From Anaerocolumna sp. (lineage in GTDB: Bacteria; Bacillota; Clostridia; Lachnospirales; Lachnospiraceae), in NCBI GenBank assembly GCA_029256725.1, contig JAQSXJ010000003.1, positions 29,689 to 93,688 on the forward strand: a stretch of 64,000 nt of DNA. Reading direction: 5' to 3'. The translations under genes were made by a program, and so were the position numbers. Positions 20,882-48,429 of this stretch are shown in pieces (position 1 is the stretch's first letter; each line of letters starts with the position of its first letter). The notes under the pieces were generated by a model. The model worked only from the letters and a program-made list of their open reading frames with translations, did not search any database and had not been told where the DNA came from.

Positions 20882-20910
20882 TAAAAATAAAAGAGAGTAG
20901 GTAGAAGACA

Positions 20911-21672: not shown

Positions 21673-21676
21673 AAAC

Positions 21677-21742
21677 ACTGTAATCCTTCTTCAAAGAAAC
21701 ATTAATAAGTTCTATTTGGTGAAGGTTGGAATTACAGTTTTC
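21677..21742 (+). terminator. Possible weak terminator/attenuator after DeoR gene
   Basis: ACTGTAATCCTTCTTC ... GAAGGTTGGAATTACAGTTTT. Confidence 0.4.
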
Positions 21743-21842
21743 AAATAAAAAGCGTGAAGTAAAATTAAGAACTTAGAAGGTATCTTTTAAACAAATAGAA
21801 AGGATAAGTTGCTTGCTATGGCTGCCATTAAGGCAGTAAGCA

Positions 21843-24479: not shown

Positions 24480-24530
24480 AGATACTGTAATCAGATGCTT
24501 TAGCAGTGAAATGCATCAGAACATTTATGA

Positions 24531-24584
24531 TTTTTCAACTACGGATTCAGGAATATCGAATCAAAGATTTGATATTCACGAAAG
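24531..24584 (+). ncRNA. 54-nt repeated hairpin leader (element E, copy 1) ahead of activase
   Basis: TTTTTCAACTACGGATTCAG-GAATATCGAATC-AAA-GATTTGATATTC-ACGAAAG; 52/54 identical to 56444-56497. Confidence 0.7.
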
Positions 24585-24592
24585 GGATAATA

Positions 24593-25378: not shown

Positions 25379-25392
25379 GGGAGGAGAAACAG

Positions 25393-25770
25393 ATGAATTT
25401 TCAGGATATGATATCCAATGACAATAAAATGAGAATCATTCAGGAAATCGTTCCCGGTAAACAGATTACATTGGCACATATTATCGCAGGGCCTGATCAG
25501 GTTCTGTATAAGAAGCTGGGATTGAATCCGGAAATAGATTATCAGAAAGCTGCCATCGGCATTCTTACTGTTTCCCCCAGTGAGACGGCGATAATAGCAG
25601 GAGATATTGCAATCAAAACCTCTGGTGTGGAACTTGGGTTTGTTGACCGTTTCAGCGGTACTTTGATTGTTACAGGAAGTGTTTCAGAAGTGGAAACATC
25701 TCTGAAAGCGATACTGGATTATGCTGTGGAGAAATTAAATTTTTCCGTATGTGAGCTTACCAGAACATGA
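25393..25770 (+). CDS. Circularly permuted BMC-H shell protein (EutS/PduU-like)
   Basis: 'RIIQEIVPGKQITLAHIIAGP...AIGILTVSPSETAIIAGDIAIKTSGVELGFVDRFSGTLIVTGSVSEVE'. Confidence 0.9.
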   Translation: MNFQDMISNDNKMRIIQEIVPGKQITLAHIIAGPDQVLYKKLGLNPEIDYQKAAIGILTVSPSETAIIAGDIAIKTSGVELGFVDRFSGTLIVTGSVSEVETSLKAILDYAVEKLNFSVCELTRT

Positions 25771-26192
25771 AAAAGCTGATACTGATCGGAAGAAGTGAAA
25801 GTGGTAAAACAACTCTTACCCAGGCGCTTAAGGGTGAGAAGCTTCAATATGCCAAAACTCAGGCAACAGATTATATGGATATGCTGATTGATACACCCGG
25901 TGAGTACGCACAGACAAAATCTCTTGCAAGTGCATTAGCACTCTATGCATATGAAGCAGACGTAGTTGGGCTGCTGCTCGGTGCCACAGAGGATTATTCC
26001 CTGTTCAGTCCCAATATTACCAGCCTTGTTAACAGAGAAGTGATTGGTATAGTAACTCAGATAGACAAACTGGAGGCTAACTGTGTCAGAGCGGGAGAAT
26101 GGTTAAAACTGGCGGGCTGCCATCGTATTTTCTACGTAAGTGCAGTTACCGGTGAAGGTCTTACAGAACTAAGGCAATATCTTATGCAATAG
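25767..26192 (+). CDS. EutP/PduV-family small GTPase-like protein
   Basis: 'KKLILIGRSESGKTTLTQALKGE', 'DTPGEYAQTKSLASAL', 'TQIDK'. Confidence 0.9.
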   Translation: MKKLILIGRSESGKTTLTQALKGEKLQYAKTQATDYMDMLIDTPGEYAQTKSLASALALYAYEADVVGLLLGATEDYSLFSPNITSLVNREVIGIVTQIDKLEANCVRAGEWLKLAGCHRIFYVSAVTGEGLTELRQYLMQ

Positions 26193-30055: not shown

Positions 30056-30490
30056 AAATGAAATTCTAATAACAAGAGTAAGAGATAAAACGGCAAAAAT
30101 TAAGAAATTCAATTCTAACGGCAAAAATTAAGAGACACAATTCTAACAGCAAAAATCAAGAGACGCAATTCTAACGACAAAATCAAGAGACAAAATTCTA
30201 ACAGCAAAATCAAGAGACACAATTCTAACGACAAAAATCAAGAGACACAATTTTAATGACAAAAATCAAGAGACACAATTCTAACAGCAAAAATCAAGAG
30301 ACACAATTTTAATGACAAAAATCAAGAGACACAATTCTAACAGCAAAAATCAAGAGACACAACTCTAATGACAAAATCAATACACACAACTCTAACGACA
30401 AAATCCATTGACATAATTCAAATGACAAAATCAACAGGAATAATCAAATGACAAAATTACAGTAACAAACTCCATCGACGAAATTCAAGC
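30056..30490. repeat. Degenerate ~28-nt tandem repeat (about 14 units) in intergenic region upstream of GH26
   Basis: Unit approx AATTCTAACRGCAAAAATCAAGAGACAC; units near the centre nearly identical, decaying at the edges. Confidence 0.92.
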
Positions 30491-30583
30491 AATATAAATC
30501 AAAGGTTTAACTCTAAGGGTAAAACCAAGACAAAACCAGCAAATATCATTTAAGAATGCAAATTTAGGCTTGAGGAGTGAATT

Positions 30584-32152
30584 ATGAAAAAGAGAAAGAA
30601 AGCTGTATGTATTATCACTGCAGTTGTTATGGTTTTTATGGCCACAGGGTGCGCTGCCGGAAGTAATAATAATGCTGGAAAGAATACGAAGCAGAATGTT
30701 GAGGCTGTAACAGTTAATACATTTGTTCAAGAATCAGTTGGAGTATATGAAGCAGAGAAGGCTGCTTGGACTGGTAATGTTAAGGTGGTTTCTAATCCAA
30801 TAATGGAGGGGTACTCAGGAACCGGATACATAGAGGGGTTTGAAGAAGATTCAGATACCTGTACCTTTACTGTTACCATAAAAAAGGATGGATTTTATGA
30901 TTTGAATTTTAGAAGTGCTAGTAAAGGCGGCGAAAAGCACAATTATGTCAGTGTGGACAGTGAACGTCTGGGGACAGTGTTTGTTGAAGCGGAAGACTTT
31001 ACAGATGCTTACTTAACAAGGGTATATCTGGTGGCAGGGGAACATGAAATCAGTCTCTCAAAGTATTGGGGGTGGATATGGTTGGATTATCTTGAGGTTC
31101 TCACTGCAGAACCTATAGATCCTTCATTTTATGAGATTAAGGCAGATCTGTCAAATAAGAATTCTTCTGAGCAAACTAAGAGGTTATACAGTTATTTATG
31201 TGATATTTATGGTAAGAAATTTCTCTCTGGACAGTTTTGTGATACAGGACAGTATGGAAAAGAATTTCAGATTATGAAAAAGGTTACCGGTAAGACACCA
31301 GCAGTACTGGGACTGGACTTTATTGAATATACACCTTCCAGAGTAGAAAATGGAAGTAACGGATATGCAACAAATTATGCAATCGATTTTTGGGATAACG
31401 GAGGTATCGTTACTTTCTGCTGGCACTGGAATGCACCCTCTGAATATCTGATCGGAGAATGGTACCGAGGATTTTATGCAGATGCCACTGATATAAATCT
31501 GGAGAAGATTATGAAAGGAGAGGATACCAAGGGATATGAACTGCTGATGAGGGATATTGATGCTATTGCAGAACAGCTTTTGTTACTAAAAGAAGCAGGA
31601 GTTCCAATACTTTGGAGACCTCTCCATGAAGCGAGTGGAGGCTGGTTCTGGTGGGGAGCATCCGGACCGGAAGCTTATAAGAAGCTTTACATACTGCTTT
31701 ACGATAGACTTACCAAAGAATATGGACTGGATAATCTTATTTGGGTGTGGAATGGACAGGATGCTGAGTGGTATCCGGGTGATGAGTATGTGGATATCAT
31801 CGGTGAGGATATCTATCCTGGTGAGAAAGTCTATACTTCGCAAATATCATCCTATCTGAATGCAGCGAAGAATTATAGCAATGAGAGGAAAATGGTGTAT
31901 CTGACGGAAAATGGATGTCTCTTTGATACCGACCTTGCAAGACGGGATGGAGCGATGTGGGGCATGTGGTGTACCTGGCAAGACGAATTTGTTGCAAAAG
32001 ATACTGCAATTTTCACCTTAAGTGAGCAATATACAGAGGAGTCAATGCTTAAAAAGGTATACGAAGATAAAGATGTTCTTACAAGAGAAGATCTGCCTGA
32101 TTTAAGTACTTATGAAATCCGCAGTAGCGACAGTGGTAAAGGGGAAAAATAG
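30584..32152 (+). CDS. GH26 beta-mannanase-like lipoprotein with N-terminal CBM-like domain
   Basis: Lipobox 'MATGCAAG'; 'WRPLHEASGGWFWWG', 'IGEDIYPGEK', 'WVWNGQDAEWYPGDEYVD'. Confidence 0.88.
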   Translation: MKKRKKAVCIITAVVMVFMATGCAAGSNNNAGKNTKQNVEAVTVNTFVQESVGVYEAEKAAWTGNVKVVSNPIMEGYSGTGYIEGFEEDSDTCTFTVTIKKDGFYDLNFRSASKGGEKHNYVSVDSERLGTVFVEAEDFTDAYLTRVYLVAGEHEISLSKYWGWIWLDYLEVLTAEPIDPSFYEIKADLSNKNSSEQTKRLYSYLCDIYGKKFLSGQFCDTGQYGKEFQIMKKVTGKTPAVLGLDFIEYTPSRVENGSNGYATNYAIDFWDNGGIVTFCWHWNAPSEYLIGEWYRGFYADATDINLEKIMKGEDTKGYELLMRDIDAIAEQLLLLKEAGVPILWRPLHEASGGWFWWGASGPEAYKKLYILLYDRLTKEYGLDNLIWVWNGQDAEWYPGDEYVDIIGEDIYPGEKVYTSQISSYLNAAKNYSNERKMVYLTENGCLFDTDLARRDGAMWGMWCTWQDEFVAKDTAIFTLSEQYTEESMLKKVYEDKDVLTREDLPDLSTYEIRSSDSGKGEK

Positions 32153-32182
32153 CAGCCGGGGGCGGCGGAAGGAGTAGTAAAT

Positions 32183-35182
32183 ATGATATCCAGGGTAACC
32201 TGTAAAAGAATCATGGCACTATTATTGACAGTTGTAATCTTACTGCCTCTGTTTCGAATAGGAGAAGTTCGAAGCTTTGCAAAGACAGAGATGACAATGG
32301 ATGAATTTGATGATGTTATCAGTACTTACAATATTGATGTTTCCATTCCCTCCTATAAGGACTACATGGAAGCGTATAAAGATGCCTCTAGACCGGAGCT
32401 GGCAATTGAGGTTACGGCAGAAGATTATGTTAGATATGAAGAGAATGATAATGTTGCGGTGCCTGAAATATACAAGGATTATGAAGGTATGGAAGGCGCC
32501 AGTGTTTTAACGGGAGAGGATTCACTAATAGAATTTGAAGCAGAGGTAGCGGAAAGCGGATTATATAATCTCTCTGTTGTTTATTATCCGGTAGAAGGTA
32601 AGAATTCAGATATTGAACGCAGTATATTTATCGATGGAATGCTTCCTTTTGAGGAAATGGCCTTACTTACTTTCCCCAGAGTATGGAGCACTTATGTAAA
32701 AGATACTTATGTAAATGAAGATGGTGTTACTGAAAAAAACTGGGAGAAAGATAATCAAGGAAATGATGTAAAGCCACAAAGTATGGAGGTTCCGGAATGG
32801 CAGAGCAGATATTTATATGACAGTAACGGCTATATAACGGATGTGTTATCAATATACCTGGAAAAGGGCAGCCATACAATCTCCATGGTCTCTTTAAAGG
32901 AACCCATGCTAATCCGTAAATTGGTGCTTAATAACGAAGGAGTCACAAAATCCTATGAAGATATAAAAGCTGTCTGGGATTCTACGGGCGTCAAGGATAC
33001 AAGTAATACCAATATTCAGATTGAAGCTGAATATGCCACAAAGACCTCTTCACAGATGTTATATCCGAAGCAGGATCAGTCATCCCCTGCGGTTTCTCCC
33101 TCCAGTTCCAAAGAGCTGCTTAATAACACCATTGGCGGAAATTCCTGGCGGCTTGTTGGGCAATGGATTGAATGGGAGTTTACTGTTCCTGAGAGCGGGT
33201 ATTACAACATATCGCTGTATGATAAACAGAGTCTTTCCAGAGGAGTTCATGTTTCCAGGCGTATTACCATTGATGGAGCTGTTCCGTTTCAGGAAATGTC
33301 TGCTTATGCGTTTAATTACAGCCAGGATTGGAGAGAAGATGTACTGTCTGATAAAGAGGGGGAGGCTTATCGTTTCTATCTGACAGAAGGACAGCATAGT
33401 CTTCGAATGGAAGTCGTGTTGGGTGAATTTTCAGAAGTAGTGGGTCTTGTCAGGGACTCTGTACAACAGCTCAACAGTATATACAGACAGGTTATAAAGG
33501 TAATTGGTGTGAAGCCGGATACCTATCGTGACTATCAGCTGTCAGCAGTACTTCCGGAGTTGAAGGGGAAGCTGATAGAGGCAAGGGATACGTTAAACCA
33601 AGCCATTGATGAGCTTTCAAAAGTAGCAGGAAAAAATACGGATAAGAAAGCCGTACTTTTGACCATGCGTGACCAGCTGGATAAGCTGATTGAAGACGAA
33701 GAATATTTTGTAAGAGTTATTACTGCATATAAGATAAATGTAAGAGCCTTGGGTAATTGGATAACGCAGGCGATTAATCAGCCGCTGCAGGTAGATCGTA
33801 TTAATATCTATTCACCGGATCAAACAAACACCTATGACGGGGATTCTTTTCTTGATAAGGCTGCATTTGAGATAAAGCGGTTATTTTATTCCTTTGTAGT
33901 TGATTATAATTCTATAGGAAGTGTGACAGATGACAAGGTACAGGGAACCCAGTCCATTACCTTATGGATTGGTTCCGGACGTGATCAGGCCAATGTTATA
34001 AAGTCATTGATTGATGAGAGCTTTACCAATGAGTCAGGAATCAGTGTAAATGTTCAGCTGGTGGATATGTCTACATTACTTAAGGCGACGCTGGTAGGAG
34101 AGGGGCCGGATGTAGCTATCCAGGTAGCAAATACCAACGGTGTTGCAGGAGCTGTTCTAAATACCGGAAATGATACACCGGTCAACTACGGAATCCGGAA
34201 TGCGGTACTTGATCTCAAACAGTTTCAGGATGCAGATGAGATCCTTTCAAGATTCTTAGAAGCGGCAACTACTCAGTTTACTTATGACGGTGGTGTTTAT
34301 GCTTTGCCAGAGACCATCACCTATCCGGTTATGTTCTATAGAAAAGATATTTTAGCTGAGATTGGAATGAAAGTTCCTACTACCTGGGAAGAGGTAAAGG
34401 TGGCAATGGCTGTCCTTGCCAAAAATCAGATGGAATTTGGAATGCTGCCTACGGAACAGATTTTTGCATCGCTGCTCTATCAGAACGGCGGAGCTTATTA
34501 CACAGAGAATGGGGCGGCATCTGCGCTGGATTCTGACATAGCTGTAAATACCTTTAAGGATTTCTGCGAATATTATACGGATTATAAACTGGATAAGGAA
34601 ACCAGTGTGGAGGAACGTTTCCGTACAGGTGAGTGTCCGATTATGATAGCGGATTATACAACCTATAATAATTTTGCAGTATCAGCACCGGATATAGCAG
34701 GACTTTGGAGCTTTACCCAGATACCTGGAACTTTGAAAGCTGATGGTACAGTCAATCATTCCGTGGCAAGCACAGGACTTGCCAGTATGATTATGGCAGA
34801 TACCGTAAATGCAGAGGCTAGCTGGGAGTTCTTAAAATGGTGGACCAGTGAGGATACACAGACTCAGTACGGACGTGAGATGGAAGGTCTGATGGGTTCT
34901 GCAGCAAGAGTTCCTACAGCGAACTATGAAGCCTTTTTAAATATGCCATGGCCTGTGGATGATTTTGAAGCTTTACAGGAATCCATGAAATGGGTGAAAG
35001 GAATCCCGCAGGTACCAGGTGGTTACTATTCCTGGCGAAATGTATATAACGCATTCTTTAAGGTGGTAACCAATACGGATACAGCTTTACCAAGAGAAGA
35101 ATTGATGGAAAAGATCATCTATGTAAATGCAGAGATTACTTACAAACGGGAAGAGCTTGAACTGGATGGCAAGAGAAAATAA
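32183..35182 (+). CDS. ABC extracellular solute-binding protein (family 1) fused to large N-terminal CBM-like region
   Basis: 999 aa; C-terminal half 'TLWIGSGRDQANVIKSLIDESFTNESGISVNVQLVD...PEVAIQ'-like SBP_1; N-terminal two jelly-roll-like segments. Confidence 0.8.
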   Translation: MISRVTCKRIMALLLTVVILLPLFRIGEVRSFAKTEMTMDEFDDVISTYNIDVSIPSYKDYMEAYKDASRPELAIEVTAEDYVRYEENDNVAVPEIYKDYEGMEGASVLTGEDSLIEFEAEVAESGLYNLSVVYYPVEGKNSDIERSIFIDGMLPFEEMALLTFPRVWSTYVKDTYVNEDGVTEKNWEKDNQGNDVKPQSMEVPEWQSRYLYDSNGYITDVLSIYLEKGSHTISMVSLKEPMLIRKLVLNNEGVTKSYEDIKAVWDSTGVKDTSNTNIQIEAEYATKTSSQMLYPKQDQSSPAVSPSSSKELLNNTIGGNSWRLVGQWIEWEFTVPESGYYNISLYDKQSLSRGVHVSRRITIDGAVPFQEMSAYAFNYSQDWREDVLSDKEGEAYRFYLTEGQHSLRMEVVLGEFSEVVGLVRDSVQQLNSIYRQVIKVIGVKPDTYRDYQLSAVLPELKGKLIEARDTLNQAIDELSKVAGKNTDKKAVLLTMRDQLDKLIEDEEYFVRVITAYKINVRALGNWITQAINQPLQVDRINIYSPDQTNTYDGDSFLDKAAFEIKRLFYSFVVDYNSIGSVTDDKVQGTQSITLWIGSGRDQANVIKSLIDESFTNESGISVNVQLVDMSTLLKATLVGEGPDVAIQVANTNGVAGAVLNTGNDTPVNYGIRNAVLDLKQFQDADEILSRFLEAATTQFTYDGGVYALPETITYPVMFYRKDILAEIGMKVPTTWEEVKVAMAVLAKNQMEFGMLPTEQIFASLLYQNGGAYYTENGAASALDSDIAVNTFKDFCEYYTDYKLDKETSVEERFRTGECPIMIADYTTYNNFAVSAPDIAGLWSFTQIPGTLKADGTVNHSVASTGLASMIMADTVNAEASWEFLKWWTSEDTQTQYGREMEGLMGSAARVPTANYEAFLNMPWPVDDFEALQESMKWVKGIPQVPGGYYSWRNVYNAFFKVVTNTDTALPREELMEKIIYVNAEITYKREELELDGKRK

Positions 35183-35195
35183 CGGAGGGAAAGAG

Positions 35196-36155
35196 ATGAC
35201 TGAGCATAAAAATAATTCCCAGGTAAATGTATCCCAGGAGGCTCTGGAAATAGCAAGAAAACAAGGAACTTTGAGATACCGGATAAAAAAGAGCAAAGCT
35301 TCTTATCTGATGCTGGCTCCTTACTTTATCTTATTTTTCTTCTTTACCGTACTTCCGGTGGTTATGAGTATAGCCTTTAGCTTTACTTATTATAATATGC
35401 TTGAACTGCCGGAATTCATTGGCTGGAAGAATTATATAAAGCTTTTCCTTGAGGATGATATCTTTTTAAAATCCTTAAAAAATACACTTATACTGGCTGT
35501 AATCACCGGGCCTGTAAGTTACTTTCTATGTCTTTTATTTGCATGGATTATTAATGAATTCAAAGGCTGGCTGCGTGCTTTTCTGACCTTGATCTTCTAT
35601 GCACCCAGTATTTGCGGTAATGCCTATGTGGTGTGGGCCTTGATTCTGTCCGGTGACCGTTACGGTTATCTAAACGGTCTGCTTATGGATCTTGGTATTC
35701 TGGATCAAGCAATTGTATGGATGAAGACAGAAAAATGGGTACTTCCTTTCTTAATCGTAGTACAGCTTTGGTTAAGTCTTGGAACCGGATTCCTGGCATT
35801 TATAGCAGGACTTCAGACTGTTGATAAATCCCTCTATGAAGCAGCAGCACTGGATGGGGTAAAAAATCGCTGGCAGGAGCTGTGGTATGTGACATTACCT
35901 GCTATGAAACCGCAGCTTATGTTCGGTGCGGTAATGCAGATTACACAATCCTTTGCCATAGCAGACGTCTCCATACAGCTGGCAGGTAATCCTTCCGTTA
36001 ACTACTCCGGTACTACAGTAGTAACTCATTTGCTTGATTATGGTACGGTACGTTTTGAAATGGGTTATGCCTCTGCAATTGCAACGGTGCTGTTTCTTTT
36101 GATGATAGGCACTAACTTGCTGGTACAGAAGGGATTAAGGAGGGTAGGAGAGTAA
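35196..36155 (+). CDS. Sugar ABC permease (MalF/UgpA-like)
   Basis: EAA-like loop 'EAAALDGVKNRWQELWYVTLPAMKPQ'. Confidence 0.9.
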   Translation: MTEHKNNSQVNVSQEALEIARKQGTLRYRIKKSKASYLMLAPYFILFFFFTVLPVVMSIAFSFTYYNMLELPEFIGWKNYIKLFLEDDIFLKSLKNTLILAVITGPVSYFLCLLFAWIINEFKGWLRAFLTLIFYAPSICGNAYVVWALILSGDRYGYLNGLLMDLGILDQAIVWMKTEKWVLPFLIVVQLWLSLGTGFLAFIAGLQTVDKSLYEAAALDGVKNRWQELWYVTLPAMKPQLMFGAVMQITQSFAIADVSIQLAGNPSVNYSGTTVVTHLLDYGTVRFEMGYASAIATVLFLLMIGTNLLVQKGLRRVGE

Positions 36156-37033
36156 TGAAGAAGCTGAGACTTTATTTTTTCAGACCAAGGGAAAAACGGT
36201 TGAATCGTTCCATGGCAGGAAATTCCTTGTTATTTATCATCATGGCTATCTGTGGTGTGGCAATGATGCTGCCACTGATCATGGTAATCAATAATTTCTT
36301 AAAACCTTTGGATGAGTTATATCAATTTCCACCTAAAATATTTGTAAGAAACCCTACTCTTGTAAATTTTTCTGACTTATTTACTTTAATGAATGATTCC
36401 TGGGTTCCTTTTTCCAGATACATACTAAATACAGTTATCATCACAGGCGGCGGAATGGTTGGGCATGTAATTATTGCTTCCCTGGCAGCCTATCCCCTGG
36501 CAAAGCATGATTTTCCGGGCAAGAATATACTATTTCATCTGGTAGTGCTGTCTATGATGTTTTCCTGGACAGTAACCCAGACACCGCAATATATGATAAT
36601 CTCCTGGCTCCATATCAATAACAGCTACTGGGCGTTGATTCTGCCTGCTTGCTCTTTTGGTATGGGACTCTACCTGATGAAGCAGTTCATGGAGCAGCTA
36701 CCGGACTCTCTTATGGAATCTGCAAGACTTGATGGTGCAAGCGAATGGCAGATTTACTTAAGGATTGTCATGCCGAATGTGAAGCCTGCCTGGCTTACAC
36801 TGGCTATCTTTCAGTTTCAGCAGATGTGGGGAAACACAGGCAGTACCTTCCTTCGAGATGAGAGTCTTAAGCCTCTGCAATTTGCCCTGCAGCAGATTTC
36901 GGCAGGTGGAATGGCAAGGGCAGGAGCCGCAGCCGCAGTAACCTTTATTATTGCCGCAGTTCCGATAACATTTTTCCTCATATGTCAGAAGAATATCCTG
37001 GAAACTATGACATCATCCGGAATGAAAGATTAA
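36155..37033 (+). CDS. Sugar ABC permease (MalG/UgpE-like)
   Basis: 'ESARLDGASEWQIYLRIVMPNVKPAW'. Confidence 0.9.
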   Translation: MKKLRLYFFRPREKRLNRSMAGNSLLFIIMAICGVAMMLPLIMVINNFLKPLDELYQFPPKIFVRNPTLVNFSDLFTLMNDSWVPFSRYILNTVIITGGGMVGHVIIASLAAYPLAKHDFPGKNILFHLVVLSMMFSWTVTQTPQYMIISWLHINNSYWALILPACSFGMGLYLMKQFMEQLPDSLMESARLDGASEWQIYLRIVMPNVKPAWLTLAIFQFQQMWGNTGSTFLRDESLKPLQFALQQISAGGMARAGAAAAVTFIIAAVPITFFLICQKNILETMTSSGMKD

Positions 37034-37047
37034 TAGGGGGGTAAAGG

Positions 37048-38535
37048 ATGAAACATATTAATAATTTACACAAAATCATATCCTTATTTCTGGCTGTACT
37101 TCTGCTTACGGTTTTTGCAGGAGAGGAAGTAAAGGCCGCAAAACTTCCCTATGACACCTATAATTACGACTACCGGGATTATGTTCATTTTACTCCGTCA
37201 GCCTTTATTCCGGCTGGTACTATACGCGGAGAAGAGCTGACTTATCAGGGAGAGGCTGTTGGAAAGTTTCTAACGCCCCAGGATATCTGCCAGACAACCG
37301 ATGGCAGGGTATATGTGGCGGATACGGGAAATAATCGAATTGTAGTGTTGGATAAAGATATGAAAAAAGCAGTGGATGTTATAACTTCTTTTGATAACGG
37401 CGGAAAAGAGGATACCTTTAATCAACCCTATGGTGTCAGTGTTTCCGAGAAAGGTCAGATATACATAGCAGATTCACAAAACCACCGGATTGTTGTACTG
37501 AGCCAGGACGGTACTTTGGTTAAGATCGTAGAAAATCCCAGGTCGGAGAGTTTAGAAGAGGGTTATGTCTTTATACCACTAAAAATAACCGTTGACTATG
37601 CAGACAGAATCTATGTCATTGCCGGGAATATGTTCGAGGGCATTATGGTATTTGAAGCAGATGGTAATTTCTCAAGCTTCTTTGGTACCATCAAGGTTGA
37701 AATAAGTCTCTGGGAGAAATTCTGGAAGAGAATTGCAACAAAAGAAGAGCGTTCCAAGCAGCAGTTATATATTCCGACTGAGTTTACCGGTATTGATATC
37801 GATCCGGAAGGATTTGTATATGCTTCGAATATCGACGCTACCGGAGTACAGGGAGTCAGAAGATTAAATCCCAAAGGGGAAGATGTCATAAAAAAGGGTG
37901 CCAATAAAAATGTGGGAGGTGATCTTTGGATTGCCGGTTCTACAGAGTATTCAGGACCTTCTCAGTTTACAGATGTAGTTTACAGAGACAATGGCATATA
38001 TTCCTGTCTGGATCGAAAGAGAGGGCGTATTATTACATATGATCATGAAGGTAACCTGCTCTATATTTTTGGCGGCTTAGGAACCCAGGAAGGAACATTT
38101 TCCATGCCTGTGGCGGTGGAAGACATTGGAGGAAATCTGGCTGTCCTTGATGCCAATAGAGGAGAAATCATCTGCTTTTCAGTAACGGAATATGGAAGAC
38201 TGATTGATGAAGCAGTGGCACTTCGCTTTGACGGCAACGAAGCTGAGGCAGTAGCTTTATGGCGCAGAGTATTGGAACTTGATGAGAACAATGAACTTGC
38301 CAATACGGGTATCGGAAAAGCTTATCTTACGGCAGGGGATTATGATCTGGCAATGAAGTATTTAAGACTAGGTATGAACCGCGACTACTATTCCATCGCA
38401 TACAAACGTTTCCGCAATAGTGTATTAGTAGATAATGCAAGTTATTTTCTAACGGGAATCGTTATACTCTTTGTTGGCTTGAAGGGTTTTAAATATGTAA
38501 GGAATAGAAAGAAAGGGGTAAACATAAATGGGTAA
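37048..38535 (+). CDS. Secreted NHL-repeat protein with TPR-like segment and C-terminal TM
   Basis: Signal peptide; 'RVYVADTGNNRIVVLDKD', 'QIYIADSQNHRIVVLSQDG'; 'NTGIGKAYLTAGDYDLAMKYLRLGMNRDYYSIAYKRFR'. Confidence 0.8.
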   Translation: MKHINNLHKIISLFLAVLLLTVFAGEEVKAAKLPYDTYNYDYRDYVHFTPSAFIPAGTIRGEELTYQGEAVGKFLTPQDICQTTDGRVYVADTGNNRIVVLDKDMKKAVDVITSFDNGGKEDTFNQPYGVSVSEKGQIYIADSQNHRIVVLSQDGTLVKIVENPRSESLEEGYVFIPLKITVDYADRIYVIAGNMFEGIMVFEADGNFSSFFGTIKVEISLWEKFWKRIATKEERSKQQLYIPTEFTGIDIDPEGFVYASNIDATGVQGVRRLNPKGEDVIKKGANKNVGGDLWIAGSTEYSGPSQFTDVVYRDNGIYSCLDRKRGRIITYDHEGNLLYIFGGLGTQEGTFSMPVAVEDIGGNLAVLDANRGEIICFSVTEYGRLIDEAVALRFDGNEAEAVALWRRVLELDENNELANTGIGKAYLTAGDYDLAMKYLRLGMNRDYYSIAYKRFRNSVLVDNASYFLTGIVILFVGLKGFKYVRNRKKGVNING

Positions 38536-39160
38536 ATATTTTTCTAAAGAAAAATGGAGTTATATGCTTTACACCATTTCCCATCCCATGGACGGTTATT
38601 ACTGGATTCGACATGAGAATAGGGGGAGTGTTCCCCTTGCAATACTTATGGTAATTCTGTTTTCTGCTTGTTTTAGTGCAAACCGTTTGCTTGCCAGTTT
38701 TGTGGTAAATGATATAGATCCAAGATCCGTGGACAGTTATTACGAATTTTTAGGGGTTCTTGCTTTTTATGCCTTGATATGCGTTAGTAACTGGTCTGTG
38801 ACATGTCTGATGAACGGCGAAGGCAGAATGAAGGATATAGCAATAGCAGTCGGCTATAGCACAGTACCCATGAGCACGGTACTGGCAGCTGGCACTTTAA
38901 TCAGCTGGTTCATTGCTGATGATGAACAGCCCTTTTATGTATTGATCCTTGGTGCAGGTATTGTATTTGGTATCCTTTTAATGCTGATTGGCATTATGCA
39001 GGTACATAATTATACATTGGGAAAAACCTTAGGGACATTATTTATTACTTTCTTAGCCATGTTAGTAATTATCTTCCTGCTGTTGCTGTTATCAAATCTT
39101 CTGGGCATGGTAGTAACATTTATTCGGAGTATCTACACTGAGCTAATTTTTAGAACTTAG
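38528..39160 (+). CDS. Yip1-family multi-TM membrane protein
   Basis: Five hydrophobic segments; 'GEGRMKDIAIAVGYSTVPM'. Confidence 0.65.
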   Translation: MGKYFSKEKWSYMLYTISHPMDGYYWIRHENRGSVPLAILMVILFSACFSANRLLASFVVNDIDPRSVDSYYEFLGVLAFYALICVSNWSVTCLMNGEGRMKDIAIAVGYSTVPMSTVLAAGTLISWFIADDEQPFYVLILGAGIVFGILLMLIGIMQVHNYTLGKTLGTLFITFLAMLVIIFLLLLLSNLLGMVVTFIRSIYTELIFRT

Positions 39161-39171
39161 GAGGCGTAAGC

Positions 39172-41781
39172 ATGAAGACTTTAATAAAGAAGCAAAACCG
39201 TCGGCCCATCAGCCTGATGAAGAAAATCGTGCTTTGTATCTTGAGTACTGTGCTGGTAGTTGGAATAATCTATCTGACCTATTACGTGATTCATTACCTG
39301 GCTTACAACAAGTACAGAGATTATCTGACAAGTTACGATTATGAAACCGGAGAAGAGTACCAACCGGTGAAAGAAAATAAAACAGATGTAGCTGGGATGG
39401 AACTGGTATGTGAAAATGAATATTTAAAGCTTTATACAGATACCACCACCGCTGCCGTTGCAGTCTATGACAAGAGAAACGGAGAAATCAGTTACTCCAA
39501 TCCTCCGGGTGCAGAGGAGGATGGTATCGCCAATGATGCCAATATGAACTATTTAAAGTCACAATTTATCTTAAATTATTATAACCCGGAGGTGAAATCC
39601 GGGACATACGATTCCTACAGCATGGCGGTAGAAAAAGGGCAGATAACGGCCCAGAGCCTTGAAAATGGTCTTCGCTACATATATCGTCTGGGAGATTTTA
39701 ATAGCAGTAAAACCGGTATAATCCCATTGTACATTACCCAGGAAAAGTTGGAGGAAATCAGAGGAAAGCTTTCAGAGAAGGATTCTGTATCCTTAGAAAG
39801 ATATTACATAGAAAGTACTACTACAAAGGATATGCTGGAACTTAACGGTGTTGTTAAGAAGAATCCAAAAACCATCAAAAAAATTCAGGAATGGCTTGAA
39901 AAAATTGGCTGGACGAACGAGGAGTATGAAGAACAGATGGAACTTGCCGGGGTTGAAACCACTCTGCCGATTTCCTTTCAGGTTCCTTTGGAATACAGGC
40001 TTATGGAAGACGGATTAAAGGTATCCATTCCGGTATCCGCAATCGAGGAATACGGCGGAGGCTCTATCTACCGAATTCAGTTACTGCGCTATATGGCCGC
40101 TGCGGATTCCACAGAAAATGGTTATATGGTTGTACCAAATGGTTCCGGTTCTTTGATTGATTTTAATAACGGCAAGATTAATGCAGCATCTTATTCCCAA
40201 TATATCTATGATCTTGATCCGTTGTCTGCAAATTATACAACTACTGAGAACAGTATAAGTGCTAAACTACCGTTGTTTGGTATCTGCAGAGAGAATTCCT
40301 CCGTCCTTGTAACCATTGAAAGCGGCGCAAGTCTTTCTCTTATAACGGCCGGAATTTCCGGTGTCTATAACGAGTATAATTACGCTTATCCGACCTTTGT
40401 ACTTCGTTCAGTCGATAATCTTAGGATGTTTGGTAATACCAGTCAGGATGTTTTAGTACTGGAACCTGAATTATACGATGCCAATCTGGAAGTAAAGTAT
40501 ACGTTTCTCACAGAAGAATACAAGGGTTATGCAGGCCTTGCAGGTTATTACAGAGAGAGGCTGATAGCTGAAGGAGTACTTACTCCTGGCACTCTGACCG
40601 GAGACATTCCTTTCTATTATGATATTATCAGCGGGGTGAAGGAAACAGCTCATTTTCTTGGAAAACAGTATCTGCATACCTTTTCCATGACTACCTTTGA
40701 TCAGGCAGCAAAGATATCTGAGGAGCTGTCAGCGCAGGGTATAAACAACCAGGTGATGAATCTGCAAGGTTGGTTTAACGGCGGGTATTATCATAATACG
40801 GCTGACAAGATAAAGATTCCTGGGAAACTTGGCGGAAAGTCAGATTTGGAAAGTCTGAATGAAACCCTGGAAAAAAACGGTGGAAGACTATATGCAGATG
40901 TTGCGTTACAACAGATAACCTATGCAGATAAGGATTTTAACTATAATGCAGAGGCTTCTAAATATTATGGAGCAGGTTATGTGGTAGCCTTAGGACAGGT
41001 AAATCCTACAACCTTAAGAAGCACCTCAAGCCTTGGGTATATGGAGACGGTCTACAATCTGCTCTCCCCCAGATATTTACCCAGATATGTGAGTAAATTT
41101 ACTGAAGAAATTAATGGCTATGATATTGAAGGAATCTCCTTAAGAGATCTAGGTAATGTAGTCTACTCTGATAAAAAACGTACGAATATAATCGACAGAG
41201 AAGAAGCACTAAAAGTGGTGTTAGGTCAGCTTGACTTATTAAAAGGAACCGGCAAGAAGCTTATGACCAATGGTGCTAATGATTACAGCTTTGCATACAG
41301 TTCAGATATTATTAATGTACCTATTGAACAGAATGATTTCCTCCTTGTAGATGAACGGATTCCCCTTTATGAAATGATTCTTCACGGCAGTATTTCCTAT
41401 TCTACAGAGCTATTAAATTATGAGGACAAAGAGGGTATGAACGAAACAGTACTTAAGATGATCGAAAGTGGTGCTGCACCTCATTATATTTTCACTTGGG
41501 AAGAGTCAAACAAGATGAAGAATACCGGCTTAAACAGGTATTATGCGACTACATTCGGAGTTTGGAAGGCCGATGCGATTGCCATTTACAATCAGGTAAA
41601 TGAACCATTAAGTCAGGTAAGGGGTTCTGTAATGCAGAATCATGAAATACTTTCAAACGGAGTAAGAAAGGTTACTTATAGCAATGGTATCGTAATCTAT
41701 ATCAACTACAGTGATGAAGTACAAATGACAGATGGGTATGAGGTACCGGCAAAAGGCTATAGATTGGAGGAGAGAAAATGA
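39172..41781 (+). CDS. Large membrane-anchored protein, DUF5696-like, possible glycosidase-type fold
   Basis: N-terminal TM; beta-rich N-domain, then barrel-like C-terminal region 'GDIPFYYDIISGVKETAHFLGKQYLHTFSMTTFDQAAKISEEL'; family name from memory and neighbourhood. Confidence 0.55.
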   Translation: MKTLIKKQNRRPISLMKKIVLCILSTVLVVGIIYLTYYVIHYLAYNKYRDYLTSYDYETGEEYQPVKENKTDVAGMELVCENEYLKLYTDTTTAAVAVYDKRNGEISYSNPPGAEEDGIANDANMNYLKSQFILNYYNPEVKSGTYDSYSMAVEKGQITAQSLENGLRYIYRLGDFNSSKTGIIPLYITQEKLEEIRGKLSEKDSVSLERYYIESTTTKDMLELNGVVKKNPKTIKKIQEWLEKIGWTNEEYEEQMELAGVETTLPISFQVPLEYRLMEDGLKVSIPVSAIEEYGGGSIYRIQLLRYMAAADSTENGYMVVPNGSGSLIDFNNGKINAASYSQYIYDLDPLSANYTTTENSISAKLPLFGICRENSSVLVTIESGASLSLITAGISGVYNEYNYAYPTFVLRSVDNLRMFGNTSQDVLVLEPELYDANLEVKYTFLTEEYKGYAGLAGYYRERLIAEGVLTPGTLTGDIPFYYDIISGVKETAHFLGKQYLHTFSMTTFDQAAKISEELSAQGINNQVMNLQGWFNGGYYHNTADKIKIPGKLGGKSDLESLNETLEKNGGRLYADVALQQITYADKDFNYNAEASKYYGAGYVVALGQVNPTTLRSTSSLGYMETVYNLLSPRYLPRYVSKFTEEINGYDIEGISLRDLGNVVYSDKKRTNIIDREEALKVVLGQLDLLKGTGKKLMTNGANDYSFAYSSDIINVPIEQNDFLLVDERIPLYEMILHGSISYSTELLNYEDKEGMNETVLKMIESGAAPHYIFTWEESNKMKNTGLNRYYATTFGVWKADAIAIYNQVNEPLSQVRGSVMQNHEILSNGVRKVTYSNGIVIYINYSDEVQMTDGYEVPAKGYRLEERK

Positions 41782-42710
41782 GCAGAAAGAAAAGAATGAC
41801 TCTTCTCCAAAAAAGAAAGATGACAGGACTTTTATTCATTCTGCCCTGGTTTGTGGGATTTCTGGTTTTCTATGTCAGATCCATACTTCTGGCAGGACAA
41901 TTTGCTTTTTCAGAACTGAATATGGATGCAGTGAATGGGGGGTACAGTCTTACAAATGTCGGATGGGAGAATTTCCGCTATGCCTTCCGCGTCCATGGTA
42001 CCTTTAAACAGATACTTACGACTTCCGTACTGGATATGCTGGTGGATGTACCATTGATTACTTTCTTCAGCTTATTTATGGCAATGCTGCTCAACAAGAA
42101 ATTCAAAGGAAGAACCATTGTAAGAGCGATTTTCTTTCTGCCAATCATCTTGAATTCCGGAGCAATTACCGCAGCAATGGAATTATCAGCTCAGATGATG
42201 CAAGGCGGTATTTCCTCTCAGGCGGCAGAGATGTTATCGTCATCAGCCTCAGCGGGCACTACCCTTGCTTTGGACATTGACTTTTTTATTGATATGTTCT
42301 TAAATCTTGGACTTCCGGTAACCCTTATCGGTTATATTATTACAGCTGTTGCGCGTATCAATGATATCATTGCTGCTTCTGGTGTACAGATAATAATCTT
42401 TATTGCTGCCTTGCAGTCCATACCGGGATCTATGTATGAGGTGGCAAAGATTGAAGGGGCGACCGGGTATGAAACCTTTTGGAAGATAACTTTTCCCATG
42501 GTAATGCCGCATATCATAACCAACGTGGTATATACCATTGTAGACAGCTTCACGGAAAGCGGTGTGGTTGATCTGGCTTATAAAACAGCCTTTAATGAAT
42601 TTAATTATGGACTGAGCAGTGTCTTCAGTCTGGTATCAACCATAATCACCTGTATTATTCTGGTAACAGTCTGCGGGCTCATACAGAAGCGTACTTTCTA
42701 CTACAATTGA
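41778..42710 (+). CDS. Sugar ABC permease
   Basis: 'EVAKIEGATGYETFWKITFPMVMPH'. Confidence 0.9.
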   Translation: MSRKKRMTLLQKRKMTGLLFILPWFVGFLVFYVRSILLAGQFAFSELNMDAVNGGYSLTNVGWENFRYAFRVHGTFKQILTTSVLDMLVDVPLITFFSLFMAMLLNKKFKGRTIVRAIFFLPIILNSGAITAAMELSAQMMQGGISSQAAEMLSSSASAGTTLALDIDFFIDMFLNLGLPVTLIGYIITAVARINDIIAASGVQIIIFIAALQSIPGSMYEVAKIEGATGYETFWKITFPMVMPHIITNVVYTIVDSFTESGVVDLAYKTAFNEFNYGLSSVFSLVSTIITCIILVTVCGLIQKRTFYYN

Positions 42711-42728
42711 GGAAAGGAGAAGCATACC

Positions 42729-43721
42729 ATGATAAAAAATTCTGCATTAACGGATAGTTTCCTTAAGATAAAAGCCATAGCCAGTGATAAAGATCAGGGT
42801 AAAAGCCTGTTGAACAATGTGAAGAAGTTCCTGATCAGCTTATCAAGAATTGCCATATTAATTGGAGTTGGATATGTAATACTGTCACCTATCATTGGCA
42901 TGGTAGTGAACTCCATTTCCTCAGATCGGGATGCTTACAATCCAATGGTATTTGTATTGCCACAATTTCCAACGCTGGAAAGATACCGGCTTGTTTATGA
43001 GTCTCTTAATTATCTGCCAACCATGGCCAGGGATTTGCTTTATACCTTATCTCTGATGCTGCTTCAGATTCTTATATGCTCTATGGTGGGATATGGTTTT
43101 GCACGATTTGATTTTCCTTTTAAGAAGCTTTTGTTTGGCTGTGTGGTGGTGATGATCGTTATTCCTGCACACACAATTATGCTTCCGTTATACATAACTT
43201 TCAGGCAGTTTGATCCATTTGGAATTGCCACCGCTCTTACAGGTTCGTCTATCAATCTCATGGGAACTCCTGTTCCTATGTATATTATGACAGCTCTGGG
43301 CTGCGGACTGAGATCAGGTTTATATATTTATATCTTCAACCAATTTTTCAGAGGTCTTCCCAAAGAAATTGAGGAGGCGGCTTTTGTAGACGGTGCAGGC
43401 GTTTGGTATACCTATTTCAAGATCATGCTGGTAAACGCCACACCAGCTGTCATAACCGTAGCGGTGTTCTCTATGGTATGGCAGTTCAATGATACTTTTT
43501 TTGCGAAGTTATTTTTGATTAGTGAGGATGTGGTAATCAGTAAAAAGATCTCCATATTGCAGGCAACCATAGCAAACGATTATAAGATCCTGGATACAGC
43601 CATACAGGAATTATATCTGAATGCCGGCATTATTTTGGTTATCTTACCCATATTGATTATCTATCTGTTGCTACAGAGATACTTTATAGAGGGTGTGGAG
43701 AGAAGCGGTATTGTGGGGTAG
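42729..43721 (+). CDS. Sugar ABC permease
   Basis: 'EEAAFVDGAGVWYTYFKIMLVNATPAV'. Confidence 0.9.
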   Translation: MIKNSALTDSFLKIKAIASDKDQGKSLLNNVKKFLISLSRIAILIGVGYVILSPIIGMVVNSISSDRDAYNPMVFVLPQFPTLERYRLVYESLNYLPTMARDLLYTLSLMLLQILICSMVGYGFARFDFPFKKLLFGCVVVMIVIPAHTIMLPLYITFRQFDPFGIATALTGSSINLMGTPVPMYIMTALGCGLRSGLYIYIFNQFFRGLPKEIEEAAFVDGAGVWYTYFKIMLVNATPAVITVAVFSMVWQFNDTFFAKLFLISEDVVISKKISILQATIANDYKILDTAIQELYLNAGIILVILPILIIYLLLQRYFIEGVERSGIVG

Positions 43722-43766
43722 ATTTCTCTCGCCTGGAAGCTATTAACTTTTATTTTAAAAGGAGGA

Positions 43767-45635
43767 GTGGAAAAGGTGAAGAACCAAAAAATTTTAGCCT
43801 GCCTGTTGGTGGGTACCATGGCTTTTGCTTTGGTTGGCTGTAAAGGTGACGGCACGAAGAAAACGGATGCAGAGGTAAAGAACGAGATTGTGCAGGAAGT
43901 GACCCAGACACCGGAACCGGAGGTAGAGCCGGTTGAGGAAACGGTAACAGCAAGCCTGGATTTTGAAGACGGTAATATGGGGTTTGTCTCTTTGTATACC
44001 CAGTCTGCTGATGCGGATAATTCGGAACTGACAATTGTAGATTACAACGGAAGTAAAGCACTGCAGGTAAAGAACATGGAGGGGAAGGTTCCTTATGTTG
44101 GAATTGATGCTACCAGCCTTCTGGGAGCTGACGTTGCGAAAGTGGCTGTCTTGGAGATGACGATTGGAACAGCCTATGGAAACGGCGGTTTTAGTGCTTC
44201 TTCCGGAAATATTCTTACCTGGACCGGTGAAAAGCTTGAAGAGACCAAATATGACTGGTCTGTATATCTGGATACCAAGAATCCAAACAAAGCTGTTGCG
44301 AAACTGGATACCGGTAAAGAATTCATAGCAGATGCCGGCAATATCTTTATTATATGCCTTAAGACAGATAACGGTATAACGGAAGGGAATGGAAATGCTA
44401 CGATGTATATCGATGATATTCGTTTCCTGGATGCTTCCGGTAATGTACTGACAGCAAATAGTACAGTAGCTTTTGCACCACCCAAAGGATTTGAAAGTAC
44501 AGGTATTGACTTGTCCAATCTTGCAGCAGTTACCAATGCTGTGAACTTTGAAGGTTTTGCTTGTACGGGAGCTGGCTGGGCACAGAATGGTTTTGAAATG
44601 CCGAAGGAAATAATCGATGCCTTGGTACCCGGTACCGTGGTAGAAATTGAATATACCAGTGAAACTGGAGATATGTGGCTGGTAATGCCCGGAGCAGCAG
44701 CTGGTTGGATGAGAGTTGGCGATGGTACCAATAGTAAAGCTTATATCAACAACTCTAAAAACGTTGCACAGATTACCTATGAGCAGATTGCAGAGTTCTG
44801 CGGAGAGGATAAAGCTACCTGGGGTACTACAATGCAGTGTGAGGCTTCCGGTGCGTGGGAAGTTTACAGTGTGAAGGTTGGCACGAAATCACCTGTCTAT
44901 GGTTTATCCAATCCTGTGGAGTTCAAAGATTTCGCTTGCAAAGCAGACGCCTGGGCACAGAATGGTTTTGATATGCCACAGGAAATTCTGGATGCCTTAG
45001 TGCCTGGTTCTGTTGTGGAAGTTAGCTATACCAGTGAGTCCGGTAAGCTGTGGTTAGTAATACCCGGAGCTGCTGCAGGCTGGATGAGAGTTGGAGATGG
45101 TACCAATGGCTCTGCCGTAAGTTATAATGGCAAGAGTTATATCACCTATGAACAGATTGCAGAATTCTGCGGTGAGGATAAATCCACCTGGGGACTTACA
45201 ATGCAGTGCGAATCCGATACACCATGGGAAGTATATGGTGTAAGAGTAGGAACTGCGGCAACTATGAACATGTTAAATAATGTTGTGGAATTTAAAGATT
45301 TCGCCTGCAAAGCAGATGCCTGGGCTCAGAATGGCTTTGATATGCCCAAGGAAATCCTGGACGCTTTCGTACCAGGTTCTGTGGTATCCGTAAAATACAC
45401 CAGTGAGTCCGGAAAACTGTGGCTTGTAATGCCGGGAGCAGCGGCAGGCTGGATGAGAGTCGGAGATGGTACCAATGGGCAGGCAGCAAACAATGATGGT
45501 ATCGCTCAAATTACCTATGAGCAGATTGCAAAGTTCTGTGGAGAGGATAAATCCACTTGGGGAACTGTGATGCAGTGTGAATCAGATACACCATGGGAAG
45601 TATATAGCGTAAGCGTTGGCCAGGCAGCTAAATAA
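43767..45635 (+). CDS. Lipoprotein with three tandem ~123-aa repeat domains (putative carbohydrate binding)
   Basis: Lipobox 'ALVGCKG'; repeats begin at 44541, 44916, 45285 ('VEFKDFACKADAWAQNGFDMP.EILDA.VPGSVV...WLV.PGAAAGWMRVGDGTN'). Confidence 0.8.
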   Translation: MEKVKNQKILACLLVGTMAFALVGCKGDGTKKTDAEVKNEIVQEVTQTPEPEVEPVEETVTASLDFEDGNMGFVSLYTQSADADNSELTIVDYNGSKALQVKNMEGKVPYVGIDATSLLGADVAKVAVLEMTIGTAYGNGGFSASSGNILTWTGEKLEETKYDWSVYLDTKNPNKAVAKLDTGKEFIADAGNIFIICLKTDNGITEGNGNATMYIDDIRFLDASGNVLTANSTVAFAPPKGFESTGIDLSNLAAVTNAVNFEGFACTGAGWAQNGFEMPKEIIDALVPGTVVEIEYTSETGDMWLVMPGAAAGWMRVGDGTNSKAYINNSKNVAQITYEQIAEFCGEDKATWGTTMQCEASGAWEVYSVKVGTKSPVYGLSNPVEFKDFACKADAWAQNGFDMPQEILDALVPGSVVEVSYTSESGKLWLVIPGAAAGWMRVGDGTNGSAVSYNGKSYITYEQIAEFCGEDKSTWGLTMQCESDTPWEVYGVRVGTAATMNMLNNVVEFKDFACKADAWAQNGFDMPKEILDAFVPGSVVSVKYTSESGKLWLVMPGAAAGWMRVGDGTNGQAANNDGIAQITYEQIAKFCGEDKSTWGTVMQCESDTPWEVYSVSVGQAAK

Positions 45636-45679
45636 TAGTAAAACAAGGGGACACACGCATTGAAGGAGGATATGGAATA

Positions 45680-47137
45680 ATGAAAAATTTAAAAAAATTA
45701 ATAGCTCTTTGCTTATCTGTTATGATGGTCATATCAATGTTTGGATGCAGTAAAAAGACTGAGAAAGATACTCCCGCAAACATCGAGGTTACAGAAAATG
45801 CCACAGAAGCACCTACCACCGAACCTGCCAAGAATACTGGTGAGAAAAGAACAATTAACATTGGTACCTGGTGGATACAATACTATGACAGCTCCCATAA
45901 AGCCGTAGAAGATGATCCCTCCTATTCAGGTCTTGATGTAGCACATTTAAAATTTGATAATGTTAAAAAGATTCATGATAAATATAATGTTGATTTCTTC
46001 TGGAAGAATCTTACCTATGCAGGAGTTCAGGAATCCATTAATAACTCCATTCTTGCAGGTACACCTGATTGCGACATCTATATGGTAGAGCTGGCATTTG
46101 GTATTCCGGCGGCACTTAATGGTCTGGGATTGGATATGAAAACGGTCCTTCCGGCAGATAACGATCTCTTTACTACACAAAAGAATATTACCTATCTGGA
46201 TCTGGGTGATGGCAAAGCAACTCTGTTAAAGAGGGTAGAAGCAGCTTCTACTATAGAAGCAACCTATCCTTTAGGCTTTAATGTGCAGATGTTAGAAAAT
46301 AGTAATCTGGAGGATCCCAGAAAATTATATGAGCGTGGAGAGTGGACTTGGGATAAATTCATTGAATATTGCAAAGTTCTGACCCAGGACTCAGATGGCG
46401 ATGGACAGACAGATCAATATGGCTATTGTGGCTTCCAAAATGAAACCTTTGAGCAGCTGCTTATGAGTAATGGTGCACATATTGCAGCCACTACAAAAGA
46501 AGAACTTTCTACTGCTGCAACCGGCGAGACCCTGCAGATGATGTCAGATATGTACAATGTTTATAATGTTGCCTATCCTTATGATTTTGAAAGCGGTGAC
46601 GATTCTACTACCATGAGGGGTCAATACCGTGAAGGAAACATCGGTTTCTTCCCTATTGCAGCATGGATTGCAGCGGATAAGGCAGATTATGACTACTCGG
46701 GTGCAAACGGATCTACTCTTGCATTTGATACTGCCTATGTTCAGTGGCCGGTAGGTCCTTCCGGAAATAAGGATACCAATGCCGGAAAAGTATCAGCAGG
46801 TGAATATTATATTATTCCTGCAGGCGTAAAAGATCCGGAAACAGTTTACAATGTACTTTATGATATGTGGAATTGGTATGACGGAGATACTTCCGTTCGT
46901 GATGATGAAGAAACACTTTATTGGTGGTATGCAGTTACTGCTTCTGATGAGACTTTACAGAATGAGAACTTCTCTGTTATGGAGAATGTCGGCAGCAGAG
47001 AGACCTTCGAACTCTGGAATCAGCTGGGTATTTCATACGATCTGCAATCACTGATCAGAGGAGAGACCACACCTGCACAGTTCCAGGAAACCTATAAACA
47101 ACAGGTGCAGGATGCCCTTGATGCATATTTTAAGTAA
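45680..47137 (+). CDS. ABC extracellular solute-binding lipoprotein (family 1)
   Basis: Lipobox 'SMFGCSKK'; SBP_1-like sequence. Confidence 0.85.
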   Translation: MKNLKKLIALCLSVMMVISMFGCSKKTEKDTPANIEVTENATEAPTTEPAKNTGEKRTINIGTWWIQYYDSSHKAVEDDPSYSGLDVAHLKFDNVKKIHDKYNVDFFWKNLTYAGVQESINNSILAGTPDCDIYMVELAFGIPAALNGLGLDMKTVLPADNDLFTTQKNITYLDLGDGKATLLKRVEAASTIEATYPLGFNVQMLENSNLEDPRKLYERGEWTWDKFIEYCKVLTQDSDGDGQTDQYGYCGFQNETFEQLLMSNGAHIAATTKEELSTAATGETLQMMSDMYNVYNVAYPYDFESGDDSTTMRGQYREGNIGFFPIAAWIAADKADYDYSGANGSTLAFDTAYVQWPVGPSGNKDTNAGKVSAGEYYIIPAGVKDPETVYNVLYDMWNWYDGDTSVRDDEETLYWWYAVTASDETLQNENFSVMENVGSRETFELWNQLGISYDLQSLIRGETTPAQFQETYKQQVQDALDAYFK

Positions 47138-47360
47138 GTAATAGTAAGTAATATAGTTTATTTTAAATCGTATTTCTGTTTATGATAAAACACCATGTCC
47201 TTTGCTGTCGCGGAGCCGATTTATAGGAATGTTTTATATTCATACCAATATAACATAGTGTAATTTGTATCTCGGATTTCTGATAAGAGAGAGCTGTTTT
47301 TATGGATGTGCATAGGATCATAGGAACATTTTATGTACCTGTAATATACAAATAAAAACT

Positions 47361-47382
47361 ACAGGGCGGTGTGCCGCCCTGT
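47361..47382 (+). other. Perfect 9-bp stem-loop upstream of GH130 gene
   Basis: ACAGGGCGG-TGTG-CCGCCCTGT followed by AAAAAA. Confidence 0.8.
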
Positions 47383-47406
47383 AAAAAAGGTAGAATGGAG
47401 GAACTT

Positions 47407-48429
47407 ATGAGCAATATAAAAATGATAGCTCCTGCGGTGCCAAATGTTCCCTGGCAGGAACGTCCGACAGGGCTAAAGGATGCCCCGGTTTGGAGATATA
47501 ATGAAAATCCAATCATTGGACGTAATCCCGTAAAAGGTGTTGCCAGAATATTTAACAGTGCGGTTATGCCATATGGTGATGAATTTATTGGTGTTTTCCG
47601 CAGTGAGCAGACTAACGGTATTCCTTATATCTACCTGGGTAGAAGCAAGGATGCCATTCACTGGGATTTTGATGAGAACAAAATACCTTTTGTGGATACT
47701 GAAGGCAAATCCTTTATGCCGCTATATGCCTATGACCCAAGACTGGTAAAGATAGAGGATACATATTACATCATTTGGTGTCAGGATTTTTATGGTGCGG
47801 CAATTGGTATGGCTAAAACAAAAGATTTTGAAATCTTTGAAAGAGTGGAAAACCCATTCCTGCCTTATAATCGGAATGCAGTACTATTTCCCAGAAAAAT
47901 TAACGGAAACTTCGTGATGTTAAGCAGACCCTCTGACAGCGGGCATACACCTTTTGGTGATATTTTCGTAAGTGAAAGTCCTGATCTCACTTTTTGGGGG
48001 AAACACAGGCATGTAATGGGCAGAGGTAACAATTGGTGGGAGTCTTTAAAAATCGGCAGCGGAGCAACTCCGATTGAAACCAGTGAAGGTTGGCTTCTAT
48101 TCTATCATGGGGTAAGCGGCACCTGTAATGGCTATGTATACAGCATTGGTGGAGCAATTCTGGATCTTGATAATCCTTCCATTGTTAAGTATCGTTGTGA
48201 GACCTTCCTGCTTACACCGGAGGAGTGGTATGAAGAGAGAGGATTTGTTCCCAATGTAATTTTCCCCTGTGCTACCATTCATGATTCAGAGTCTGGAAAG
48301 ATTGCTATTTACTATGGTTCAGCAGATAGTTATGTAGGTCTTGCCTTCACCAAATTTGATGAAATCATAGCCTATATTAAGGAGCATAGCAATGTATCCG
48401 GAAGTGATACAGAAATTGGTAACCGATAG
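47407..48429 (+). CDS. GH130 beta-1,4-mannosyl(oligosaccharide) phosphorylase-like
   Basis: 'NPIIGRNPVKGVARIFNSAVMPYGDEFIGVFRSE', 'YDPRLVKIEDTYYIIWCQDFYG', 'WLLFYHGV'; start at ATG after GGAGGAA (track start 47371 rejected). Confidence 0.85.
   Translation: MSNIKMIAPAVPNVPWQERPTGLKDAPVWRYNENPIIGRNPVKGVARIFNSAVMPYGDEFIGVFRSEQTNGIPYIYLGRSKDAIHWDFDENKIPFVDTEGKSFMPLYAYDPRLVKIEDTYYIIWCQDFYGAAIGMAKTKDFEIFERVENPFLPYNRNAVLFPRKINGNFVMLSRPSDSGHTPFGDIFVSESPDLTFWGKHRHVMGRGNNWWESLKIGSGATPIETSEGWLLFYHGVSGTCNGYVYSIGGAILDLDNPSIVKYRCETFLLTPEEWYEERGFVPNVIFPCATIHDSESGKIAIYYGSADSYVGLAFTKFDEIIAYIKEHSNVSGSDTEIGNR

Follow-up and report, generated by a model that had tools for sequence, protein, structure and literature searches.

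CUT1 importers that share an MsmX/MsmK-type ATPase combine MalF/MalG-like permeases bearing EAA loops with a solute-binding protein (SBP), lack a local ATPase and are served by a single multitask ATPase encoded elsewhere. As described in PMC6385246, the beta-mannan loci of Roseburia intestinalis contain one SBP and two permeases together with a GH26 surface mannanase and GH130 phosphorylases. Bacteroidota SusCD-type PULs encode surface glycan handling and uptake together with GHs. Here we describe a locus that resembles each of these systems, located in a 64,000-nucleotide stretch (the window) of the 5.53 Mb genome of Anaerocolumna sp. The locus contains a conserved module composed of an SBP fusion, two permeases (perm1 and perm2), an NHL-TPR protein, a Yip1-family protein, a DUF5696 protein and two further permeases (perm3 and perm4), which appears to be an import machine of general use that has not been described before, not a peculiarity of mannan loci. 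A search of mainly open-access literature found no paper on DUF5696 and no relevant paper on an NHL/Yip1/SBP module.

Layout of the locus

ORF calls and Pfam matches place twelve genes, all on the + strand, at positions 30584-48429 of the window:

30584..32152, +, GH26 (beta-mannanase-type) with CBM35 and the lipoprotein signal ATGC (Pfam, sequence)
32183..35182, +, secreted SBP fusion with an N-terminal extension of ~570 aa and without a lipobox
35196..36155, +, perm1, MalF-like CUT1 permease (ORF opens at 35127; start at 35196 likely)
36155..37033, +, perm2, MalG-like permease (EAA loop ESARLDGA)
37048..38535, +, NHL propeller plus TPR, with signal peptide and C-terminal TM helix
38528..39160, +, Yip1-family multi-pass membrane protein (Pfam Yip1)
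39172..41781, +, DUF5696, N-terminal TM anchor plus GH129/GH101-like fold
41778..42710, +, perm3, permease (EAA loop YEVAKIEGAT)
42729..43721, +, perm4, MalG-like permease (EAA loop EEAAFVDGAG)
43767..45635, +, lipoprotein with three CBM65_1 domains (Pfam), accessory in mannan-type loci
45680..47137, +, SBP2, by appearance a lipidated solute-binding protein, also in related loci
47371..48429, +, GH130, beta-1,4-mannooligosaccharide phosphorylase family, without signal peptide (Pfam)

The gene order and family labels proposed in an initial annotation are borne out by these calls, as are its statements that the locus encodes no ABC ATPase and that the trio of NHL, Yip1 and DUF5696 genes overlaps or abuts between two permease pairs: NHL and Yip1 overlap by 8 nt, 11 nt separate Yip1 from DUF5696, and DUF5696 overlaps perm3 by 4 nt. 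All four permeases match BPD_transp_1, and the window DUF5696 protein matches PF18952 with an E-value of 2e-186. The SBP fusion is 999 aa long and carries its SBP_bac_1/8 match at the C-terminus, preceded by an extension with two jelly-roll/CBM-like domains plus a helical linker; its AlphaFold2 model had a pLDDT of 53 and was set aside. SBP2 gave no Pfam match above threshold. An apparent 56-nt overlap between the SBP fusion and perm1 probably reflects a mis-called start, because the later in-frame Met at 35196 gives a protein of 319 aa, the family median. The closest match to the locus is in Clostridium sp. KNHs205, where DUF5696 is 92% identical and the twelve genes stand in identical order.

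Directly before GH26, the operon leader contains an A-rich array of ~13 copies of a 28-nt repeat, AAAATCAAGAGACACAATTCTAACGAC (window 30071-30502). KNHs205 has a diverged array at the corresponding place (L006 799-1208), other upstream regions tested lack it, and within the Anaerocolumna genome the motif is confined to this leader. The array is possibly regulatory. An Rfam scan of the window returned no match, and promoter and terminator scans did not rise above shuffled sequences. Elsewhere in the window (12896-26192) lies a glycyl-radical-enzyme microcompartment-type cluster with genes for an aldehyde dehydrogenase, three BMC-domain proteins, a phosphate propanoyltransferase, an RnfC-like ferredoxin protein, a PFL-like enzyme with a radical-SAM activase and PduV/EutP.

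Conservation, spread and substrate range of the module

With DUF5696 as the sole criterion, we assembled 97 loci (genome contigs gave 54, a phylum-wide panel 40 and the Anaerocolumna genome 3) and read their neighbourhoods with profiles built from close relatives, counting loci with enough sequence. NHL lies upstream of DUF5696 in 93 of 93 loci and perm3 lies downstream in 94 of 94, with Yip1 and perm4 each present in 93 of 93. The profiles detected an SBP fusion in 66 of 74 loci; the eight without it belong to four genomes (G058, G077, G125 and G151), each of which encodes SBP fusions elsewhere. G058, for instance, has a stand-alone SBP fusion-perm1-perm2 half (L114) in addition to joined copies (L113 and L115), and panel families f42 and f56 show that this half can sit apart from the NHL-to-perm4 half in some genomes. 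The invariant core of the module consists of NHL, Yip1, DUF5696, perm3 and perm4, usually after the SBP fusion, perm1 and perm2; GH26, the CBM65 lipoprotein, SBP2 and GH130 are mannan-specific dressing at the window locus. This arrangement is far beyond chance, and the 97 loci together with the genome panel rule out the trio as chance neighbours. Co-conservation of the trio with ABC permeases, which the initial annotation had set as a gene-neighbourhood check, proved strict across the same material. The module is co-inherited, and inter-locus distance matrices, calculated without a background control, correlate at 0.78-0.95 across seven proteins.

The panel comprised 250 genomes of one phylum. 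DUF5696 exceeded the cut-off in 24 of them, and strong NHL-Yip1 matches were found in exactly these 24. A full-length SBP fusion occurs in the same genomes (a contig end truncates one of them) and additionally in G098 and G141. Neither these two, which have the SBP fusion only, nor the fragments in G075 and G224 are clear exceptions: at 3.8 and 4.3 kb, the G098 and G141 contigs stop within the module, and the contigs of the G075 and G224 fragments, in the range of 3-9 kb, stop within it or close by. Module carriers span eleven families and are patchy within genera (G165 and G189 have the module, congeneric G045, G083 and G114 do not), a pattern that, with kinship between genomes ignored, looks like gain and loss as a unit. 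The Anaerocolumna genome has three copies (window, L004 and L005), and some genomes have four or more. DUF5696 is also encoded by two 'Bacteriophage sp.' records from human faeces, MT835600.1 (L108) and MT835587.1, the former containing a whole module plus the CBM65 lipoprotein, SBP2 and GH130; both records are most likely bacterial fragments misfiled as phage.

Inspection of the flanking genes revealed a broad range of associated enzymes. The window copy adjoins GH26 and GH130, L004 lies beside GH43, L005 beside GH30 and GH35, and a Butyrivibrio plasmid copy beside GH43, with GH42, alpha-galactosidase, GH3, GH31, fucosidase, GH26, GH130 and GH43 at the flanks of other loci. Because the set recurs beside enzymes for many sugars, the module is general and the window copy is its beta-mannan version. 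The paralogues beside other GHs led us to reject a mannan-specific trio. The local GHs, CBM lipoproteins and SBPs would set the substrate, beta-mannan in the case of the window. On a Paenibacillus cellulosilyticus plasmid (L107), the GHs are replaced by three LLM-class flavin-dependent oxidoreductases that flank the module, accompanied by an NADPH-dependent oxidoreductase and two further SBPs; flanks with oxidoreductases rather than GHs suggest a non-polysaccharide substrate for this copy.

Transport components and NHL-Yip1

The module has the characteristics of CUT1 transport, with BPD_transp_1 permeases that carry EAA loops, a solute-binding protein and a MalK/MsmX-type ATPase in the genome. 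The EAA coupling loops of perm2, perm3 and perm4 are kept across 73-94 homologues, and the window sequence gives YEAAALDGV as the perm1 loop. A shared MsmX-type ATPase had been expected elsewhere in the genome, and this is what we found: the Anaerocolumna genome encodes a single OB_MalK (MalK/MsmX-type) ATPase, on a different contig from the window, which keeps three of four MsmX signature residues (D77, R104 and K154; E110 is Q). Exactly one OB_MalK ATPase is encoded in 20 of 23 other carriers, and on the P. cellulosilyticus plasmid the ATPase gene ugpC lies directly before the module. Taken together, the EAA loops, the single ATPase and the position of ugpC suggest that one and the same ATPase probably drives both permease pairs. 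Close to the lone MsmX-type ATPase gene, L105:1779-5021 encodes a DUF5704 protein of 1081 aa.

No lipobox is present in 63 of 67 SBP fusions. This is unusual for a Gram-positive SBP, and the protein is therefore probably retained through contacts with other proteins or by a signal that stays uncleaved.

NHL and Yip1 form a single ORF of ~700 aa in 28 loci, one of which is the Anaerocolumna paralogue L004. In these fusions, the Yip1 match falls within the final 200 residues, and there are several additional TM segments. The fusions and the gene overlap in the window provide strong evidence that NHL and Yip1 act as one protein, presumably a membrane scaffold with its propeller facing outward.

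Possible functions and relation to known systems

With moderate confidence, we favour a reading in which NHL-Yip1 and DUF5696 are accessory subunits that link two CUT1 importers with one shared ATPase in a substrate-generic module. DUF5696 would be a membrane-anchored, largely non-catalytic GH129 relative that binds or guides glycan. Together with NHL-Yip1, it would dock the non-lipidated SBP fusion at the cell surface and couple the perm1/2 importer with the perm3/4 importer, both powered by the shared MsmX-type ATPase. We infer this physical assembly and mechanism; perm1/2 and perm3/4 could also be two separate importers, since the module halves sit apart in some genomes. A bolder reading, which we regard as tentative, is that all eight proteins join in a single stable supercomplex, with an NHL-Yip1 scaffold and a pseudo-glycosidase bridging two ABC importers, a single-membrane SusCD counterpart that would feed bound glycan chains to the coupled importers. 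The initial annotation had envisaged a surface complex that handles long beta-mannan and would coordinate its hydrolysis with import: the complex gains indirect support from the 28 fusions, the topology and the invariant gene order, and the specificity for mannan is not supported, given the other GH neighbours.

The AlphaFold2 model of DUF5696 (pLDDT 80) has a GH129-type fold consisting of a beta-sandwich, a TIM barrel and a C-terminal beta domain. Foldseek matched the model to DagB (8RZK/5OPQ; E 1e-29, TM (target) 0.67 to 8RZK), to the GH129 enzyme NagBb (E 3e-22) and to GH101, and a profile of 38 diverse DUF5696 C-terminal halves reached NagBb at E 5e-7 and DagB at E 1e-4; Pfam Glyco_hydro_129 (PF11308) was absent among all 22 families matched by the 38 members (set A5). 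This fold and homology would suit a GH129/DagB-type alpha-glycosidase that is active at the surface and removes side groups ahead of uptake, with two ordinary importers making up the remainder of the module, an alternative that we consider unlikely. A catalytic Asp of NagBb is Asp435, with Asp486 its counterpart in DagB, and the alternative draws some support from the fact that these two enzymes themselves differ in one catalytic residue (PMC5698469). The DUF5696 counterpart of Asp435 is Asp659, located where barrel strand 4 ends, an assignment that is provisional because positions were mapped by strand topology rather than by residue-level superposition of structures. Asp659 is kept in the window protein and its mannan-type relatives, a point in favour of an enzyme, but in just 20 of 42 distant members. 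By the same topology mapping, no acid is conserved across the family at the ends of strands 5 and 6, and the conserved catalytic Asp/Glu pair of GH129 was not found in DUF5696; a search of 61 genomes and of plasmids found no GH129 proteins for direct catalytic-residue alignment. Unlike an accessory enzyme, DUF5696 is moreover fixed beside permeases whatever the GH set. Since the expected catalytic positions hold no conserved acid, we infer that most DUF5696 members are not hydrolases and that DUF5696 is a mostly non-catalytic glycan-binding protein with the look of a degenerate glycosidase.

More doubtful still is that the trio serves as a glycan sensor, in which the NHL propeller senses an extracellular ligand and signals via Yip1, and the ABC pairs import different oligosaccharides independently of each other. 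PknD, a signalling kinase with an extracellular NHL propeller, is among the PDB matches, and the separable module halves would fit this proposal, but the trio lacks any kinase, cyclase or DNA-binding domain, the conserved genes include no regulator, and the trio genes always directly precede a permease pair. A chaperone-like assembly or stability factor for the permeases, outside the working importer, is very improbable: eukaryotic Yip1-family proteins are membrane-trafficking factors and the trio always adjoins perm3 and perm4, but the extracellular NHL, TPR and GH129-like domains are large, which points to a function on the outer side.

Should the trio belong to the importer, as in the favoured reading of two linked CUT1 systems, the textbook picture of ABC sugar import (SBP, two permeases and ATPase) leaves out components in many gut and soil Bacillota, about one-tenth of the sampled genomes of the phylum being carriers. 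This reading would also assign a role to DUF5696 and to a bacterial Yip1 family and make the module a useful marker with which to find and classify glycan loci in Gram-positive genomes.

The module differs from CUT1 importers with a shared ATPase in that fixed NHL-Yip1-DUF5696 genes separate two permease pairs in each locus and the SBP fusion has a long N-terminal extension and no lipid anchor. The excerpted description of the R. intestinalis mannan loci mentions no NHL, Yip1 or DUF5696 protein (PMC6385246). DUF5696 has its overall fold and detectable sequence homology in common with GH129 (NagBb), GH129-like DagB (5OPQ) and GH101, but its catalytic Asp is not conserved in the family, and it is membrane anchored and fixed beside ABC permeases. 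In contrast to SusCD PULs, the module would rely on ATP-driven ABC import in a single-membrane cell, and the locus has no Pfam match to a SusC/SusD pair. The module is a variant of ABC import rather than a SusCD PUL, and it may behave like a system that captures glycans at the surface and imports them.
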